A stretch of 11,219 bases of DNA, from contig SXIE01000327.1 of NCBI GenBank assembly GCA_005772945.1, positions 1 through 11,219 of the forward strand, in the 5' to 3' direction. The notes under the pieces are model-generated. The model ran no database searches and had not been told where the DNA came from. It saw nothing but the letters and a program-made list of their open reading frames with translations. Each line of letters starts with the position of its first letter. Within the stretch, counting starts at the first letter, position 1. Shown here piece by piece: positions 1-10,838 of the stretch. This DNA is from Pseudomonadota bacterium. Its GTDB lineage: Bacteria; Myxococcota; UBA9042; PHBI01. The position numbers and the translations under genes were made by a program.

Positions 1-231
1 GCCGACGGCGGCCAGGGCGGCCACGGCGGGGGCGGCGGCGGCGCCTGCGGCGGCGCGAGCTACGGCATCTACGTCGCTGCGCCGGGCGGCGGCCCAGCCC
101 TCTGGAAAACAGACAACGGCTTCGCCGCGGGCGCGACAGGCGGGTCCAAGGGCCGCGGCGGCGTGAGCCTCGACCAGACAAAGAACGGCAAAGACGGCGC
201 GGCCGGGACGGCGGCCAACACGAACTTCTGA
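1..231 (+). CDS. C-terminal end of a glycine-rich (PGRS-like) protein, 5' end outside the window
   Basis: Frame 1 is open from the window edge to a TGA at 229-231 and gives the last 76 residues. The first 20 or so are almost all Gly with a few Ala, Asp, Gln, His and Cys, including a run of seven glycines. Then comes an ASYGIYVAAPGGG segment and a Gly/Ala/Lys-rich tail ending TAANTNF. Myxobacterial and related genomes encode many long glycine-rich surface or secreted proteins with similar SxGIY segments near Gly tracts; this tail resembles them. The N-terminus is missing, so no signal peptide can be checked. The TGA overlaps the ATG of the next gene by one base (TGATG), which suggests translational coupling to the SecY-like gene. 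Function unknown; the family label rests on composition alone. Confidence 0.7.
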   Translation, partial: ADGGQGGHGGGGGGACGGASYGIYVAAPGGGPALWKTDNGFAAGATGGSKGRGGVSLDQTKNGKDGAAGTAANTNF

Positions 232-1757
232 TGCAGCGCTTGAAGCTCCTCGGAGCCTTGGCGCTGACGGTCCTCTGTGCGTGGGTGCTTTCGTTGCTCG
301 CCAAGATCGAGCTCCCGCGAACCGACGATCGGTACCGCGTGCCCATGGAGGGCCGCGGGCCCGCGCCGCCCGCTTGGTTGGAGGGCGCCGTGACGCCGCG
401 CGTGGCGGCCGGCGAGCCCCTCGTGCCGCCCGAAGTGCCCCTCGAAGGCACACCTCCGATCCGGTTACCCCGCACCCTGCCCGACGGCATCGAGCTCCGG
501 CTGCCGCCGCTTTCCGACGACTTCGAGCTCCGGCTGCCGCCGCTTCCCGACGACGCCCCCATCGAGTATCCGATCGAGACGCGGTCGTACCTCGAAGAGC
601 CCTTCCCGTTTCACCTCGGCGTGCTCGGGGTGACGCCGCTGCTCACCGCCATGCTCCTCATCGAGCTGCTCGCCGCGGCGGTCCCGCGCTGGCGCCCGCG
701 GCGGCACGGTGGTGGTGTCGCGCGGCGCCCGCTCGTCCGTGCCGCGTTCCTACTGGCCGGCGTCCTCGCGGTCATCCAGGCCTTCGGCGTCGCCGTGTAC
801 GCGCGCGGCATGGGGATCGCCGCGCACGGCATGGGCCCGACGCTCGCCATCATCCTCTTGTCCGTCCTCGGTCTCGCGCTTCTCGCGGGCGCGATGTGGC
901 TCTCGAGCCGCTTCGGCGTCGCGAACGGCTTCGTCGTCTTCGTCGTCTTCTTGGCCATCCCGATCTGGCTCCCCCAGCTCCTCCACACTTGGGGCGCCGA
1001 GGACCGCGAGTACGCCTGGCACTTCATCCTGGTCGGCGTGGCCGCGACCGTCGCGGTCCTGACGCTGCGTCCGGACGGGCGTCGGCTGCCGATCTCAGGG
1101 CTCTTGCCGCTGACGATTCCCATCCAGGTCGCCGGGCTCGTCGCCCTCGTCGCCGCGCTCACCGTCCCGGACCTCATGAACATCACGCACCCGTCGGCCG
1201 CCGTCCGCACCGTGCTCATCGGCGTCATGGCGGTCGGGATCCCCTGGCTCGCGCTGCGGCGACGCCCGCACACGCCGTCGTCGACGCCCGGCGACACCCG
1301 TCGCTCGCTTGCGAAGCGCGCGCAGCGCGTGCCCATGGCACATTCGCTGGCCCTCTCGGCCGCCTATATCGCGGTCCTCTACGCCATCAACGCCCTCGCC
1401 TCCCCGAACCCATCGCTGCTCGCCGTCGGCCAGGAGTTCATTCTCATCGCCACCACGACCGCCGCTATCTGGGACGTCCTCGCCGAGCTCGACGCGCGCT
1501 GGCGCCACGGCCCCCTCGTCGCCGCCTGGCCCTTCCACGACGTCGACGCCGCCGAGCGCGTCGCCGCCGCCCTCACCGCGCGCGGCATCCCCGCGTTCCT
1601 GCGCACCCATCGCCTGCACACGCTCGTCCGCATCCTCGGCCCCTGGTTCGCGACCGAGCTCATGGTGCCCCCCGCGGCGGTCGAACTGGCGCGCCAACTC
1701 GCCGAGACCGACCACGCACAACCAGCCCTCGCGGCCGCCGCCGAGGCCCTGGCCTGA
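231..1757 (+). CDS. Divergent SecY-like translocon protein with a DUF2007-like C-terminal domain
   Basis: This 508-aa protein has ten plausible membrane segments, near residues 5-24, 128-150, 168-189, 203-222, 230-252, 262-279, 292-314, 325-344, 368-389 and 398-418. Their order and local motifs follow SecY. An ELPRTD end of TM1 matches SecY IPIPGID. LGVTPLLTAMLLIELL (131-146) matches the TM2 LGIMPYISASIIIQLL. VLAVIQAFGVA (178-188) matches TM3. MWLSSRFGVANG (222-233) matches the MWL...GIGNG motif. PDGRRLPI followed by PLTIPIQVAG matches the C4 loop and TM7. A VGQEFILIA...WDVLAEL stretch matches TM10. Differences from normal SecY: the plug region (about 25-125) is a long Pro-rich acidic loop with an 11-residue repeat, the C4 loop is shortened, and GIGNG is GVANG. 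Residues about 430-492 resemble DUF2007 (AERVAAALTARGIPAFLR...ELMVPP). The ATG overlaps the upstream stop. The SecY relation was read by eye against the remembered E. coli sequence, so it needs a profile search. Confidence 0.75.
   Translation: MQRLKLLGALALTVLCAWVLSLLAKIELPRTDDRYRVPMEGRGPAPPAWLEGAVTPRVAAGEPLVPPEVPLEGTPPIRLPRTLPDGIELRLPPLSDDFELRLPPLPDDAPIEYPIETRSYLEEPFPFHLGVLGVTPLLTAMLLIELLAAAVPRWRPRRHGGGVARRPLVRAAFLLAGVLAVIQAFGVAVYARGMGIAAHGMGPTLAIILLSVLGLALLAGAMWLSSRFGVANGFVVFVVFLAIPIWLPQLLHTWGAEDREYAWHFILVGVAATVAVLTLRPDGRRLPISGLLPLTIPIQVAGLVALVAALTVPDLMNITHPSAAVRTVLIGVMAVGIPWLALRRRPHTPSSTPGDTRRSLAKRAQRVPMAHSLALSAAYIAVLYAINALASPNPSLLAVGQEFILIATTTAAIWDVLAELDARWRHGPLVAAWPFHDVDAAERVAAALTARGIPAFLRTHRLHTLVRILGPWFATELMVPPAAVELARQLAETDHAQPALAAAAEALA
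491..556 (+). repeat. 33-bp tandem repeat, two copies, inside the SecY-like gene
   Basis: Two head-to-tail copies of a 33-bp unit (491-523 and 524-556) are nearly identical; the first 30 bases differ at one position. They encode two copies of an 11-residue unit, ELRLPPL(S/P)DD plus one residue, in the extracytoplasmic loop between TM1 and TM2. The in-frame period means copy number could change without breaking the gene. Confidence 0.9.
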
Positions 1758-1805: not shown

Positions 1806-2675
1806 TCAGAACCTGAGCGGCCGGAGCGCGTCGGCCCGCGCGACCGGCAGCGCCACGGGGACCACCGGCAGCGACCGATCGGGCACCAGCGCCTCGAACC
1901 CCGCGACCATCGGCAGGCTCCGATACGCGTCCGACAGGCGCCACGCGTCCCAGAACCGCGCGATTGGCAAACGGGCCACGGCCCCGTCGGCCGGGTCGTT
2001 GAAGATCACCTCGCCGCGCTCGAACCCATGCACGACCACCCAGTGCAGCCCCGGCGCCTCGAGCCCCCAGAGCGGCGCCGCCTCGGCCAGAATCACCACC
2101 GGCCGCCGCTCGGCGATCGCCTGTTTCAGCCCAATCACCGACCACGCCTCGAGCGGGATCCACGGATGCTCGAACGCCTCCCAGCGCGCGGCGCCGAAGC
2201 GCTCGAGGCTCTCCTTCATCATCGCCCGCGTCGTCATCCCCGCGTCATACCCGGGCAGCCGCATCTGCCGAAGCGGGAACGCCTGCCAACTCCACTCGCC
2301 GACGGTGTCGCGCAACGCACGCAACTCCGCGGGAGTGCTCACTTTTTGGAACGCCGCCAGCGTCATCGCCGCGGTCGTCGGCCCGCAGTTGGTCTTGTCG
2401 CCGCGCTGCCGAATCACCGGCATCGGCACGTCGAACTGCATCGCCGTGATCGGCTCTTCGGCGCGCAGCGGGCGGATGACGGGCCCGTCGGAGCGGACCG
2501 ACCCCGAGGCCACCTGCGTCGACTCGCGCTCGTGGCGCGTCTCGCCCTCCAGACCCTCGCGCACCGCGCCCGACGCAGCCGCCGCGAGCTCGTCGGGCAG
2601 CTCGGCCCGCGCCCCCGCATGAGCGACCACGACCGCCAGGAGCCCCACCCACCCGCTGTGCCGCGCGTACCTCAT
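1806..2675 (-). CDS. Exported C39-like (papain-fold) cysteine peptidase
   Basis: This 289-aa protein starts with a short basic N-terminus, a hydrophobic stretch (WVGLLAVVVAHAGARA) and a plausible signal peptidase I site after Ala24. A low-complexity linker runs to about residue 80. The peptidase domain (about 81-265) shows the C39_2 pattern: Cys97 in TNCGPTTAAM, His211 in LHWVVVHGF, and Asp227 in FNDPADG. All three catalytic positions are present. No ABC transporter domains are attached, so this is a stand-alone secreted or envelope peptidase, not a bacteriocin exporter. The ATG is preceded by GAGGTGG about 4 bases upstream on the minus strand. It faces the SecY-like gene tail to tail and diverges from the bactofilin operon. 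Its substrate cannot be read from sequence; members of this family include uncharacterised double-glycine-type or amide-bond peptidases. Confidence 0.85.
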   Translation of the reverse strand: MRYARHSGWVGLLAVVVAHAGARAELPDELAAAASGAVREGLEGETRHERESTQVASGSVRSDGPVIRPLRAEEPITAMQFDVPMPVIRQRGDKTNCGPTTAAMTLAAFQKVSTPAELRALRDTVGEWSWQAFPLRQMRLPGYDAGMTTRAMMKESLERFGAARWEAFEHPWIPLEAWSVIGLKQAIAERRPVVILAEAAPLWGLEAPGLHWVVVHGFERGEVIFNDPADGAVARLPIARFWDAWRLSDAYRSLPMVAGFEALVPDRSLPVVPVALPVARADALRPLRF

Positions 2676-3019: not shown

Positions 3020-3391
3020 TTGGACAACGGCACCCACATCCAGGCCGGCACGGTCGTGGTCGGAACGGTTCGCGGCAAAGGCCCGCTCACCGTCGCCGGA
3101 CGCATCGACGGCAAGGTCTTCATCGACGGCGACGTGCGCATCGCCGCGCGCGCGGCCGTCACGAGCGACATCGAGGCGGACGTCGTCGAGGTGCGCGGCC
3201 TCGTCAAGGGCAACATCAAGGCGCGCCAGCAGGTCGTCGTCGACGCGGGCGCGCAGGTCGAGGGCACCATTGAAGGTGCGCGCATCGAGATCGACCCCGC
3301 CGCGCGCGTCAAGGGACGCCTCGTGATGCCGCTGCAACTGCCGCGTGGCGTGCGGGGCCCGACCCCGGCGCGCGACGCGTGGAGCACCTAA
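3020..3391 (+). CDS. Bactofilin, first of three
   Basis: This 123-aa protein is a short beta-helix protein of the bactofilin family, polymer-forming cytoskeletal proteins that assemble on the inner face of the membrane without nucleotide. The core (about residues 5-107) is built from short repeats rich in Val, Ile, Gly and Asp, for example GPLTVAGRIDGKVFIDGDV, followed by VEVRGLVKGNIKARQQVVV and VEGTIEGARIEID. These hydrophobic-x-hydrophobic-x-G turns are typical of the family. The tail (about 108-123) is short, Pro/Arg-rich and probably unstructured. The start is a TTG with a GGGGAGG site 7 bases upstream. It is the first gene of a plus-strand run; the next bactofilin begins 50 bp after its stop. 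Confidence 0.9.
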   Translation: MDNGTHIQAGTVVVGTVRGKGPLTVAGRIDGKVFIDGDVRIAARAAVTSDIEADVVEVRGLVKGNIKARQQVVVDAGAQVEGTIEGARIEIDPAARVKGRLVMPLQLPRGVRGPTPARDAWST

Positions 3392-3441
3392 ACCACCCAG
3401 GTCCCGCGCGTGCGCGGGCCGGACGGAGCACGGAAACAGCC

Positions 3442-3759
3442 ATGGCAGAGTCCATCATCGGGCCGAACATCACGATCGAAGGTGACATCACCGGGACCGA
3501 CGCGCTGACCATCTTGGGCAACGTGCGCGGCGGCAAAATCCAGGTGAAGGAAGGCGTCATCGTCGCGCCGACCGGGCGCGTCGACGGCGAGGTCGAGTCG
3601 GCCGGCCTCGAGATCGCCGGGGCAGTGACCGGCAACGTGTCCGCCTCGGACAAGGTCGAAATCAAGTCCGGCGGAAAGCTCGTCGGCGACGTGAAATCCC
3701 CGCGGATCCTCATCGCGGATGGGGCGTCGTTCAAGGGCAACATCAACATGCAGGGATGA
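3442..3759 (+). CDS. Bactofilin, second of three
   Basis: This 105-aa protein is almost entirely bactofilin domain. It runs from SIIGPNITIEGDITGTDAL to a C-terminal ASFKGNINM; an FKGxIxM-like end is common in this family. I chose the ATG at 3442 because its N-terminus lines up with the other two bactofilins and a GGA-containing purine-rich stretch lies just upstream. A GTG at 3379 in the same frame would add 21 residues rich in Pro, Arg and Ala, overlapping the previous gene, and is unlikely. With almost no tails this is the minimal member of the trio and could be the main filament subunit, with its neighbours as modifiers; that role is an inference. Confidence 0.92.
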   Translation: MAESIIGPNITIEGDITGTDALTILGNVRGGKIQVKEGVIVAPTGRVDGEVESAGLEIAGAVTGNVSASDKVEIKSGGKLVGDVKSPRILIADGASFKGNINMQG

Positions 3760-3763
3760 CGCT

Positions 3764-4279
3764 GTGAACGACGTAGCGCACATTTCAGCTGGTCATCGCG
3801 TCGTGGGCACCGTGTCTGCGGCCGAGGACCTCGTCATCCTCGGGCGGGTCGAGGGGCGGATCCAGTCCGAAGGCATGGTCACGGTTGAGGTCGGGGCCAT
3901 CGTCGAGGCGGAGATTCTGGCCCGTCACGTCCTCATCCGCGGGGTCGTCGTCGGCGACGTGAACGGGGTCGAGGGCATCGAGGTCGCGGCCCAGGCGCAA
4001 GTGCTGGGCGATCTCAGGACGCGCCGCTTGGCCCTGCGCGCCGGCGGGCGCGTGGCCGGGGCGGTCACGACCGGCATCGAGGTCCAGCCCTTCATCTACG
4101 CCGGCAAGTCGGCCGCGCAGAGCGCGTGGCGTTCGCGCACGACGACGGTGCCGATGGGCGGCGCGCGCAGTGCGTGGCCGGTCGACGAGGTCGTCGAGTC
4201 GGTCTCGGCCAGGAGCGGCGCCGGTGGTGGCAGTGAAGCCCGCAAGACGAGCAGCGAGCCGTCGCGCGAAATCCTCTGA
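3764..4279 (+). CDS. Bactofilin, third of three, with a long C-terminal tail
   Basis: This 171-aa protein starts at GTG 3764, four bases after the preceding stop, with AGGGA 7 bases upstream. Residues about 6-106 form the bactofilin beta-helix (AHISAGHRVVGTVSAAEDL, then VLIRGVVVGDVNGVEGIEV). Residues about 107-171 are a tail rich in Ser, Arg, Ala and Gly, with a short VDEVVESVSA segment that could be helical, and are probably mostly disordered. Tails of this kind in larger bactofilins are candidate partner-binding regions. The tail's coding sequence overlaps the start of the next gene by about 56 bases. Myxococcus xanthus has a comparable bacNOP cluster with parC and padC; no ParC- or PadC-like gene lies next to this trio. 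Confidence 0.9.
   Translation: MNDVAHISAGHRVVGTVSAAEDLVILGRVEGRIQSEGMVTVEVGAIVEAEILARHVLIRGVVVGDVNGVEGIEVAAQAQVLGDLRTRRLALRAGGRVAGAVTTGIEVQPFIYAGKSAAQSAWRSRTTTVPMGGARSAWPVDEVVESVSARSGAGGGSEARKTSSEPSREIL
4211..4215 (+). promoter_or_regulatory. Ribosome binding site inside the third bactofilin gene
   Basis: AGGAG lies 8 bases before the GTG at 4224 and is the best-supported initiation signal for the lipoprotein gene. It falls within the coding sequence of the third bactofilin, whose stop is at 4277-4279. Confidence 0.45.
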
Positions 4280-7595: not shown

Positions 7596-7722
7596 CGCAT
7601 CCTCCGCCCGTGTCGGTAGCGCTTTGGCGATCGGGTGTCAAAGAAGCCGTGGCACGGTCACGCCGGGGGGACTCGGTCGTCGGCGCGCATTCGCGGGCGG
7701 CGGTGCGAGGTCCGAAAACGGC

Positions 7723-7751
7723 GAGACAGCGCTGGGGTCGGGCGCTACAAG
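7723..7751 (+). promoter_or_regulatory. Possible promoter of the alkylation-repair operon
   Basis: GAGACA (7723-7728), a 17-bp spacer and TACAAG (7746-7751) each match four of six consensus positions. A start site about 7 bases past the -10 would fall on or next to the ATG at 7758, giving a leaderless or nearly leaderless mRNA. The spacer is bounded by an inverted repeat, AGCGC (7728-7732) and GCGCT (7742-7746), a candidate operator. Confidence 0.3.
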
Positions 7752-7757
7752 GCGGCC

Positions 7758-9179
7758 ATGACGATGAACGCGGAGACCTGCTACGGCGCCATGGTGGCGC
7801 GCGATCGACGCTTCGATGGCCTGTTCTACGTCGGCGTGAAGACGACCGGGATCTACTGCCGACCGATCTGTCCCGTGCGCCTTCCGGCGGCTGCGAACTG
7901 CACGTTCTTCCGCTGCGCCGCCGAGGCCGAGAAACACGGTTTCCGGGCGTGTCTGCGCTGCCGGCCGGAGCTCGCGCCAGGACGTGCGAGCGTCGACGCG
8001 CGGGCCGATCTCGCCGAGCGCGCGGCGCGCCAGATCGACGCGGGCTACCTCGACGCGCATTCGGTCGAGGCGCTGTCGGACCGCCTCGGGGCGAGCGCGC
8101 GGCATGTGCGGCGGGCGCTCGAGGCCGAGCTCGGCGTGACGCCGGTGGAGTTCGCGCAGACGCGGCGCCTCGCGATCGCGAAGCGGCTCTTGCACGACAC
8201 GACGCTGCCGCTTGTCGAGGTCGCGGCGGCGTCGGGATTCGCGAGCCTCAGGCGCTTCAATGCGGCGTTCGCGGAGCGCTTCGGGCGACCGCCGTCAGCG
8301 CTCAGGCGCGACGCGGGGCGCTACGTCGGCCACGCCGACGCGATCGTCTTGCGGCTCGACTATCGGCCGCCGATGGACTGGGGTGACACGCTCGCGTTTC
8401 TCGCGGGGCGCGCGATCCCGGACCTCGAGCATATCGATCCTGCGAGAGGGACCTACACGCGGCGGCTCGGCGGGGGTGGTGAGGTTCATGTCGCCGCGCA
8501 TGCGCGCGAGCCTTATCTCATCGCGCACGTGTCGCTCGATCGCGTCGGGCCGCTCGGGGCGCTCACGCAGCGGCTGCGCAGTCTCTTCGATCTCGACATG
8601 CGCCCGGACGTCATCGCGGCGCAGCTCGGCCGCGATCCACGCCTTGCCCACTCGGTCGCGCTGCGGCCCGGGCTGCGGGTGCCCGGGGCCTTCGATGGTT
8701 TCGAGACGGCCGTGCGCGCCGTGCTCGGTCAGCAGGTCTCGGTGGCCGCGGCGACCACGCTCGCCCGCCGCCTCGTCGCGCGTCATGGCAGGTTTCCGGA
8801 TGCAGACACCCTCGCGGCATCGCCGCTCGCGGAGGTCCGGGCGATCGGGCTGCCGACGAAACGCGCCGAGACGCTGCTCGGGCTCGCGCGCGCGGTCGCC
8901 GACGGTCGCATTGATCTGACGGGAGCGGGCGCGGGCGGCGATCCCGAGGCGACGATCGCGCGCCTCGTCGAGCTGCCGGGGTTCGGTCCCTGGACCGCCA
9001 ACTACCTCGCGATGCGCGCGCTCCACTGGCCGAATGCGTTTCCAGCAGCGGATCTCGGCGTGAAAAAGGCGCTCGGCCTGACGCGCCCGCGCGACATTCT
9101 CGCGCGCGCCGAGCGCTGGGCGCCGTGGCGCGCCTACGCCGTGATGCACCTTTGGCGCAGCCTGGGAGACCCATCATGA
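7758..9179 (+). CDS. alkA: Ada-AlkA fusion: methyl-phosphotriester sensor, AraC-type regulator and 3-methyladenine DNA glycosylase
   Basis: This 473-aa protein has three parts. Residues about 1-75 are the Ada zinc domain, with Cys34, Cys38, Cys65 and Cys68 at the spacing of E. coli Ada Cys38/42/69/72; Cys34 would accept the methyl group from a DNA phosphotriester. Residues about 82-185 are an AraC-type double helix-turn-helix, ending in the VAAASGFASLRRFNAAFAERFG pattern. Residues about 195-470 are an AlkA-like glycosylase: VLGQQVSVAAATTLA, a helix-hairpin-helix LPGFGPWTANYLAMR (406-420), and FPAADLGV with catalytic Asp432. The O6-methylguanine transferase domain of E. coli Ada is absent and is supplied by the next gene. 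The ATG at 7758 (or 7764) is chosen because the Ada homology begins there; AAGG lies 5 bases upstream. The protein probably regulates its own operon. The same alkA-type fusion followed by ogt is known in Mycobacterium tuberculosis. Confidence 0.95.
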   Translation: MTMNAETCYGAMVARDRRFDGLFYVGVKTTGIYCRPICPVRLPAAANCTFFRCAAEAEKHGFRACLRCRPELAPGRASVDARADLAERAARQIDAGYLDAHSVEALSDRLGASARHVRRALEAELGVTPVEFAQTRRLAIAKRLLHDTTLPLVEVAAASGFASLRRFNAAFAERFGRPPSALRRDAGRYVGHADAIVLRLDYRPPMDWGDTLAFLAGRAIPDLEHIDPARGTYTRRLGGGGEVHVAAHAREPYLIAHVSLDRVGPLGALTQRLRSLFDLDMRPDVIAAQLGRDPRLAHSVALRPGLRVPGAFDGFETAVRAVLGQQVSVAAATTLARRLVARHGRFPDADTLAASPLAEVRAIGLPTKRAETLLGLARAVADGRIDLTGAGAGGDPEATIARLVELPGFGPWTANYLAMRALHWPNAFPAADLGVKKALGLTRPRDILARAERWAPWRAYAVMHLWRSLGDPS

Positions 9180-9682
9180 AGAGACGTTGGACCATGGCCT
9201 CGCCGCTCGGCACGCTCGAGCTCGTCGCGACCGACGACGCACTCACGGACGTGTGGTTCGGGGTGCCGGGCGCCGGGCGATTCGTTGGTGTACCAACTAT
9301 TTCCGACGTCGGCGCACACCCGGTGCTGGCGCGGGCGGCGACCCAGCTCGCCGCGTACTTTGCCGGCACGCGCACCGGCTTCGAGCTCCCGCTCGGGCCC
9401 GCGGGCACGCCGTTCCAGCAGCGGGTCTGGCGTGCGCTCTTGGCGATCCCGTATGGCGCGCGCTGCTCCTATCGCGACATCGCGAACGCGATCGGAGAGC
9501 CGACCGCCACGCGCGCCGTCGGCGCCGCGAACGGCAAGAACCCGCTCGGCATCATCGTGCCATGCCATCGGGTGGTCGGCGCGGACGGCTCGCTGACCGG
9601 CTACGCAGGCGGCCTCGAGGCCAAGCGCTGGCTCCTCCGCCACGAGGCGGAGCACACGCCGTTCACGCTCGCGCGCGCCTAA
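9176..9682 (+). CDS. ogt: Methylated-DNA-protein-cysteine S-methyltransferase (Ogt)
   Basis: This 168-aa protein removes methyl groups from O6-methylguanine and O4-methylthymine by irreversible transfer to its own cysteine. The active-site segment is NPLGIIVPCHRVVGADGSL, with acceptor Cys130. The C-terminal domain also has TPFQQRVWRALLAIPYG (78-94), the arginine-finger segment RAVGAANG (113-120) and GYAGGLEAKRWLL. The N-terminal domain (about 1-75) is short and typical. The ATG overlaps the Ada-AlkA stop as ATGA, so the two are translationally coupled. An alternative start at 9125 would add 17 residues inside the previous gene and is unnecessary. The TAA stop is part of the palindrome at 9680-9824. 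Confidence 0.95.
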   Translation: MKRRWTMASPLGTLELVATDDALTDVWFGVPGAGRFVGVPTISDVGAHPVLARAATQLAAYFAGTRTGFELPLGPAGTPFQQRVWRALLAIPYGARCSYRDIANAIGEPTATRAVGAANGKNPLGIIVPCHRVVGADGSLTGYAGGLEAKRWLLRHEAEHTPFTLARA

Positions 9683-9824
9683 CCAGGATCGCCTTGATCG
9701 TGATCCAATCGCGATCCTTCGTCACTTCCTCGCTCGCTTGTGCGCCGTACGTCGAGTACGGCTCCGCGCTCGCTCGCTCGTTCCTCGGCTGGCGATTGGC
9801 TCAGCGTCAATGCGACCCTGGTTA
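9680..9824. repeat. 145-bp interrupted palindrome between ogt and meaB
   Basis: The arms 9680-9717 and 9787-9824 are inverted repeats: ungapped, 30 of 38 positions pair. Each arm begins with TAACCAGG, and that TAA is the stop codon of ogt on one side and of meaB on the other. At the centre is a perfect hairpin, CCGTAC-GTCGA-GTACGG (9745-9761), whose midpoint differs from that of the arms by one base. Between arm and centre lie GC-rich CGCTCGCT tracts that are not inverted. No open frame here looks coding. It could serve as a two-way terminator or be a small palindromic dispersed element; copies elsewhere in the genome would decide. Confidence 0.8.
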
Positions 9825-10838
9825 GTGGGCCGGCGGCCAGCAGGTGAGGAGGCGATCGACGGCCGCCAGGACCGGGAGGGCGCCGCTCTCGACCGCGGCC
9901 TCGATGGACGCGAGCTCGCCAGCCAGCTCGTGCCGGATCCGGTCGCGCACGCGCTCGTCGACCAGGGCCCAGAGCCAACGCAGGTTCTGGCCGGCGCGCT
10001 GGGCGGCCAGCTTGCCGTTCAGCGCCTGGCGCGCGACGTGGGCGTCCGCGGCGGCGAGGACCTCGGCGATCCCCAGGCCCTCGAGGGCGCTGGTGACGAG
10101 CACCTCGGGCGGCTCGCCGGCCGGATGGAGGAGACGCAGGGCCGCGCGCAAGTGGGCCGCGGCGCGATGCGCGGGGCGCTCGAGCTCGCCGTCGGCCTTG
10201 GTCACGACGACGAGGTCGGCCATCTCCATGATGCCGCGCTTGATGCCTTGGAGCTCGTCGCCGGCGCCCGGGAGCGCGAGCAGGACGAAGGTGTCGACCA
10301 GGTGCGCGACGGCGGTCTCGGATTGGCCGACGCCGACCGTCTCGATGAGGACATGGGAGCAGCCGGCCGCTTCGAGGACGAGCGTCGCCTCGCGGGTGCG
10401 GGCCGCAACGCCCCCGAGCGTGCCGCCGGCCGGGGACGGACGAATGAAGGCGCGGGAGTCGGTCGCGAGACGGGGCATGCGGGTCTTGTCGCCGCGGATC
10501 GAGCCGCCGGTTTTCTCCGAGGTGGGGTCGTCGGCGAGGACGCCGATGCTGAGGCGCGCGGGAGGGTCGGCAGGGTCGGTGGGGCCGGGCGCCGCGAGGT
10601 CGCAGAGCGCGAGGCCGAAGGCGTCGATGAACGTGCTCTTGCCGACGCCCGGGACGCCGGTGATGCCGATGCGGTGGGCGCGTCCGGTGTCGGGCGCGAG
10701 GCGCGCGAGGAGCTGATGCGCGTGCGCGCGGTCGTCGGGGTGCTTGGACTCGACGAGCGTGATGGAGCGGCCGAGCGTGGCGCGTTCGGCGGCGCGGATG
10801 CCGGCCACCATCGCGTCGAGATCGAACGGCGGTCTCAC
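9822..10838 (-). CDS. meaB: MeaB/ArgK-type G-protein chaperone of methylmalonyl-CoA mutase
   Basis: This 338-aa P-loop GTPase loads and protects the B12 cofactor of methylmalonyl-CoA mutase. Walker A is GVPGVGKST (61-69). The MeaB-specific segment DPTSEKTGGSIRGDKTRM (104-121) and the switch/Walker B segment ETVGVGQSE (166-174) are clear. The base-recognition motif, usually NKAD, reads TKAD (213-216). The C-terminal arm (about 270-338) holds the helical region involved in dimerisation in this family. The GTG start at 10838 overlaps the mutase stop as GTGA and has no ribosome binding site, so it is read by coupling. The frame stays open upstream, but only because of GC-rich codon bias. It converges on ogt. 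Confidence 0.94.
   Translation of the reverse strand: MRPPFDLDAMVAGIRAAERATLGRSITLVESKHPDDRAHAHQLLARLAPDTGRAHRIGITGVPGVGKSTFIDAFGLALCDLAAPGPTDPADPPARLSIGVLADDPTSEKTGGSIRGDKTRMPRLATDSRAFIRPSPAGGTLGGVAARTREATLVLEAAGCSHVLIETVGVGQSETAVAHLVDTFVLLALPGAGDELQGIKRGIMEMADLVVVTKADGELERPAHRAAAHLRAALRLLHPAGEPPEVLVTSALEGLGIAEVLAAADAHVARQALNGKLAAQRAGQNLRWLWALVDERVRDRIRHELAGELASIEAAVESGALPVLAAVDRLLTCWPPAH

Follow-up and report, generated by a model that had tools for sequence, protein, structure and literature searches.

SecY forms the channel for protein export in bacteria, and a role in protein export has also been described for the P1-head domain of SecD. A passage in PMC4826270 presents the C4 loop and the tip of the C5 loop of SecY as docking loops for SecA and the ribosome; the P1-head is proposed, in a section of PMC8082313, to bind precursor proteins, and is described as critical in translocation in part of PMC9508474. 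For the accessory SecY2, itself a divergent kind of SecY, one section of PMC5076819 states that SecY2 together with Asp4 and Asp5 raises the ATPase activity of SecA2, and that the accessory Sec locus carries the gene for the protein that it exports. The locus considered here encodes another divergent SecY, and sequence comparison and predicted models are best explained by a small set of SecY homologues in which the ten-helix fold appears to have been kept and the interaction surfaces rebuilt.

The gene occupies positions 231..1757 of the window (the whole stretch of DNA that was analysed, 11,219 bp, 71.5% G+C), on the forward strand like all of its features given below, with its ATG at 231 and its stop at 1757. 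It encodes a 508-aa protein (P0001) composed of TM1, a Pro-rich insert, TM2 to TM10 and a DUF2007-like tail, and its G+C by codon position (0.749/0.513/0.914) resembles that of most other window genes. Immediately upstream is the 3' end of a Gly-rich ORF (1..231, forward strand; GC3 0.896), known from this one contig only, whose last 76 amino acids lie within the window and match no Pfam family over that piece; its TGA (229-231) shares bases with the ATG of the SecY-like gene in the sequence TGATG, which suggests translational coupling of the two. No ribosomal protein gene was found among the window genes scanned, in keeping with the preliminary description, which had placed the gene outside a ribosomal protein operon. 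Directly downstream, in convergent orientation, is a gene for a C39-like cysteine peptidase (1806-2675, reverse strand; PF13529, 7.1e-9) with an apparent signal peptide. Elsewhere in the window are three consecutive bactofilin genes (3020-4279; PF04519, 5e-20, 6.2e-23 and 5.5e-17), whose listed ORFs overlap at their ends, and an alkylation-repair pair (7635-9682), in which an Ada-AlkA fusion and the Ogt-type methyltransferase gene after it overlap as listed. The window also holds a gene for a MeaB GTPase (9822-10790, reverse strand), for which the best 80 of 574 genome-collection relatives, at 42-50% identity, all have Bacteroidota-type titles, a picture that may reflect the search patterns used.

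A divergent SecY homologue with ten membrane segments in SecY order had been proposed for this gene, and both points hold. The hydropathy scan finds ten hydrophobic segments in the 508-aa protein, which on its own matches the SecY family PF00344 at 1.3e-6 (28.5 bits, under the 32.2 cut-off, and over residues 132-277 only), the NCBIfam model TIGR00967 at 6.2e-6 (25.4 bits against a cut-off of 253.6) and SecY chains in the PDB at 5.6e-6 at best; the best-matching stretch, found with both Pfam and the PDB chains, runs from TM2 to TM6 (624..1061). The profile of the ten-member family matches E. coli SecY (5mg3_Y) at 1.3e-34, from TM1 into TM10 (positions 14-361). Aligned with 26 ordinary SecYs by hhalign, it reaches a probability of 99.2 and a score of 149, compared with 14 for the reversed family and 31-42 for six block shuffles. 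TM1-6 alone score 129, and TM7-10 alone 29.6 (reversed control 12.8), which does not exceed the full-length shuffles but falls in the right place. Two predicted models, built without ordinary SecY rows and retaining the whole ten-helix fold, also have SecY as their best structural match, so that the comparison with SecY structures proposed in the preliminary description gave SecY by profile and by predicted fold alike. Chance likeness of hydrophobic helices is ruled out by the reversed and block-shuffled controls and by these models. By homology across the ten-helix channel, in the same helix order, and by its predicted fold, the protein is a member of the SecY superfamily (PF00344) by descent. 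A housekeeping secY mistaken for a paralogue was likewise rejected, because C4 and C5 are missing and the SecY score is low.

Nine relatives of P0001 were found (P0002-P0010). A first protein search with P0001 returned P0002 alone, from a Polyangiaceae MAG. With P0002 as query, P0003-P0010 were then found, P0010 coming from a Deltaproteobacteria MAG and the rest from JGI records; a third protein search (with alignment), which listed neither P0001 nor P0009 themselves, yielded no additional protein of this layout. Because scoring in these searches is confined to some 8,000 candidates with exact words in common, the family numbers at least ten members. The names of the two MAGs, together with the high G+C content, suggest a myxobacterial host for P0001. 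Pattern scans gave no relatives of the family among 5 matches in the genome collection and among 4 and 46 matches in two scans of viral contigs. A plasmid tblastn search with P0006 returned 31 records, none covering 80% of the query, and wherever one of the 20 matches listed overlies an annotated feature, that feature is secY or secD. In 39 genomes taken as Pontibacter kin, the family profile found one match each (profile 14-261), taken as ordinary secY. No paper on a SecY-DUF2007 or SecY-SecD fusion was found in the open-access literature as searched by title and start of abstract.

Nine of the ten members pass the SecY Pfam cut-off, P0001 being the sole exception, and P0001 and its nine relatives have 22 invariant columns in common, spread across the SecY-like part and the tail. 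In the tree a branch with support 100/99 separates the ten from seven ordinary SecYs, and P0001 pairs with P0010 (99/97) on a long branch; end branches measure 1.33-1.53 changes per column in five members, the longest being that of P0001 (1.53). Another divergent SecY homologue, P0017 (351 aa, ena), has SecY as its sole Pfam match and falls on the side of the ordinary SecYs.

Several signatures of the SecY core are retained. TM1 (246..302, residues 6-24) is followed by IELPRTD, aligned to the proline motif (I/V)P(I/L)PGID at the end of SecY TM1; GVANG (915..929, residues 229-233) aligns as the counterpart of GIGNG between TM4 and TM5; and TM10 with the Asp that follows it, D415, lies at 1413..1475 by hydropathy and alignment. 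Across the family, as in SecY/Sec61-alpha, the TM2 Gly and Pro are found (the Pro in 10/10), GxxNG keeps its first and last Gly in all ten and its Asn in nine, and the residue after TM10 is D in every member, compared with D (24) or E (2) in the 26 ordinary SecYs. The TM3-TM4 loop is nearly unchanged (26-29 residues, against 27-38), and four of the five pore-ring columns remain mostly hydrophobic; the fifth, I278, reads T,T,G,P,P,S,V,T,V,D and is non-hydrophobic in most rows.

The docking loops, in contrast to those of SecY/Sec61-alpha, are cut back. The C4 remnant of P0001 (1068..1109, residues 280-293, by hydropathy and alignment) leaves 12 residues between anchors; the spacing is 12-26 in eight members and 35 in two, compared with 36-44 in 24 ordinary SecYs. 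The C5 remnant (1257..1343, residues 343-371) has no G(I/V)(R/K)(P/A)G tip, a C5 tip with Arg or Lys is absent from all ten members, and the loop is 18-39 residues long against 42 in the 24. The column of E. coli R357 holds R or K in none of the ten, compared with all 26 ordinary SecYs (9 R, 17 K). Loop lengths were taken from 24 of the 26 ordinary SecYs, P0011 and P0018 being left out as truncated, and residue counts from all 26, of which 18 come from one Pontibacter genome and its relatives and, being 64-90% identical to the Pontibacter SecY in the 17 compared, are not independent. All these counts come from a single alignment; a second alignment left the C4 and C5 numbers unchanged but misplaced TM1 of P0001. 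The preliminary description had also reported matching local motifs along the protein, and this stands for TM1, GVANG and TM10 but fails at C4, which is mostly missing (12 residues instead of 36-44), only the start of TM7 aligning there. P0017 also seems to lack the C5 tip, together with part of the plug, in a poor alignment of its TM7-10, and docking-loop loss may therefore have occurred more than once.

The plug region is similarly reduced, to 10-23 residues in nine members compared with 32-39 in the 24 ordinary SecYs. P0001 has at this site 102 unrelated residues between anchors (59 in the second alignment, with its misplaced TM1), most of them a Pro-rich insert (321..608, residues ~31-126) that has no Pfam match and a block-mean pLDDT below 50 throughout; it contains a 33-bp direct repeat (480..554; 2.3 copies, 90% match) in which ELRLPPL.DD is encoded twice. 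In the model of P0006, where the plug helix TM2a was looked for, a 7-residue helix is predicted at 35-41 in a partly low-confidence stretch. Trimming is not limited to the docking loops, because the periplasmic loop between TM7 and TM8 has also shortened (44-52 residues in the family, 55-62 in ordinary SecYs).

Directly after TM10, the tail of P0001 forms a DUF2007-like domain (1500..1718, residues ~424-496), modelled as beta-alpha-beta-alpha-beta-alpha with a block-mean pLDDT of 59-89, mostly 75-89, and taken from topology to be cytosolic. The earlier proposal of a DUF2007-like C-terminus is borne out by the family: all nine tails tested match PF09413 at E <= 1, the best at 1.9e-6 (a tail whose bits were not displayed and which may pass the cut-off), the P0005 tail having been left out as near-identical to that of P0004. 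The tail of P0001 itself is weak, with E 0.024 and 15.2 bits against a cut-off of 25.7, and full-length P0001 gives no DUF2007 Pfam match; no full-length member passes the cut-off, the best being P0007 at 23.0 bits. A search by sequence for solved relatives of the tail gave nothing under E 0.98.

The preliminary description missed a second added domain, the SecD P1-head (PF22599), which occurs in eight of the ten members (4.5e-10 to 5.2e-24), at the C-terminus in six (P0002-P0007) and at the N-terminus in two (P0009 and P0010). The family profile matches the solved SecDF P1 fragment 3aqo at 4.1e-17, and Foldseek pairs the P0006 model with the same structure at 6.9e-7, but with poor overall superposition (rmsd 15.5). 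Unlike in SecD/SecDF, P1 is here joined to a SecY-like channel, and PF22599 is the only SecD-type Pfam match, with no SecD membrane domain. By hydropathy, the three members with a C-terminal P1 that were scanned have one more helix ahead of it, and the N-terminal P1 sits between two helices in both members that have it; the scan, which covers seven of the ten members, is rough: it overlooks SecY helices in P0007 and P0009 and calls false segments in the tails of these two and, for P0010, in both tail and P1. From topology, P1 would be periplasmic and DUF2007 cytosolic in either layout. P0001 and P0008 are without P1, and the Pro-rich insert, considered as a hidden P1, does not match the P1 profile; P0001 thus has a long plug-site insert instead of P1. 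Nor is P1 encoded by a neighbouring gene within the window, which ends 76 codons into the upstream ORF: the best of 151 six-frame stretches scored E 0.24 against a P1 profile that recovered the SecD P0020, outside the profile, at 3e-23 and P0019, one of its rows, at 4e-47. P0001 and P0008 are not grouped in the tree, and P1 may therefore have been lost twice or gained separately.

Considering what such a protein might do, the preliminary description favoured an accessory translocon, and this is weakened by the state of the docking loops. With the C5 tip lost and C4 and the plug loop cut back, an accessory translocon driven in the normal way by SecA or the ribosome is unlikely, as is any SecA- or ribosome-driven mode like that of ordinary SecY, judging from sequence. 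We prefer, at a probability of about 40%, an auxiliary SecY-derived channel or lateral-gate insertase in which DUF2007 and P1 would replace the lost docking sites. DUF2007 could serve, on the cytosolic side, as the receptor or gate of one specific partner or client; hydrophobic segments could pass through the lateral gate, or a nascent exported chain could be held there; and the P1-head, or in P0001 perhaps the long Pro-rich plug-site loop, could take up the chain in the periplasm, with an active SecYEG-SecDF complex presumed in the same cell.

The chief rival to the auxiliary channel is a non-conducting, SecY-derived partner or regulator of the main translocon, which would sit beside the SecYEG-SecDF of the cell, contact exported chains through P1 and signal to the cytosol through DUF2007. 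Shortening of the docking loops, plug and TM7-TM8 loop together, loss of hydrophobicity in most rows of the I278 column, rapid divergence (five members with end branches of 1.33-1.53) and the fusion of P1 without a SecD membrane domain all favour this reading; set against these, GxxNG is kept together with the TM2 Pro and the TM10 Asp, four of five pore-ring columns stay mostly hydrophobic, and the models retain the whole ten-helix SecY fold, so that we regard a non-conducting role as possible though doubtful. Distinctly less probable is a conventional accessory translocon of the SecA2-SecY2 kind, driven by SecA or SecA2 and dedicated to one substrate, perhaps the upstream Gly-rich protein. 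The overlap of the SecY-like start with the Gly-rich stop does recall an accessory Sec locus encoding its own substrate, as stated in part of PMC5076819, but that neighbour has been seen on a single contig, the R357 position and C5 tip are lost in 10/10 members and C4 is cut in 8/10. The SecY2 models TIGR02920 and NF009082 score P0001 at 12.7 and 13.2 bits, far under their cut-offs of 249.6 and 353, and no secA2-like gene, asp gene or serine-rich substrate was recognised among the window genes scanned, the upstream side comprising only 76 codons.

Use of the SecY fold for something else, such as lipid or small-molecule handling or envelope sensing, would accommodate the absence of the canonical motor dock and plug length, and some neighbours (bactofilins, BacA and the C39-like peptidase) are envelope-related; a domain with a role in protein export has nevertheless been fused at two different ends of the protein within the family, and we consider this reading more improbable still. 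A decaying secY pseudogene, to which an end branch longer than that of any other member (1.53) and the 33-bp repeat in the insert might point, is highly improbable given an open frame of 508 codons with a GC3 of 0.914 and 22 invariant columns common to P0001 and nine relatives in both the SecY-like part and the tail.

Returning to the auxiliary channel, a more specific and, in our estimate, unlikely form of it is a one-piece, motor-free protein-handling pore, in which the docking loops would have been traded for a built-in cytosolic DUF2007 receptor and a built-in SecD P1 receiver serving dedicated clients. If this were true, one polypeptide would do a job otherwise split between SecYEG and SecDF. 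A SecY-fold family that has lost R357 and is fused to P1 would allow the abilities of the SecY core alone to be told apart from the contribution of the motor docks, and the family raises the question of whether a SecY channel can make use of P1 when the remainder of SecDF is absent; both questions, that of the core alone and that of P1 without SecDF, could be addressed with one protein.
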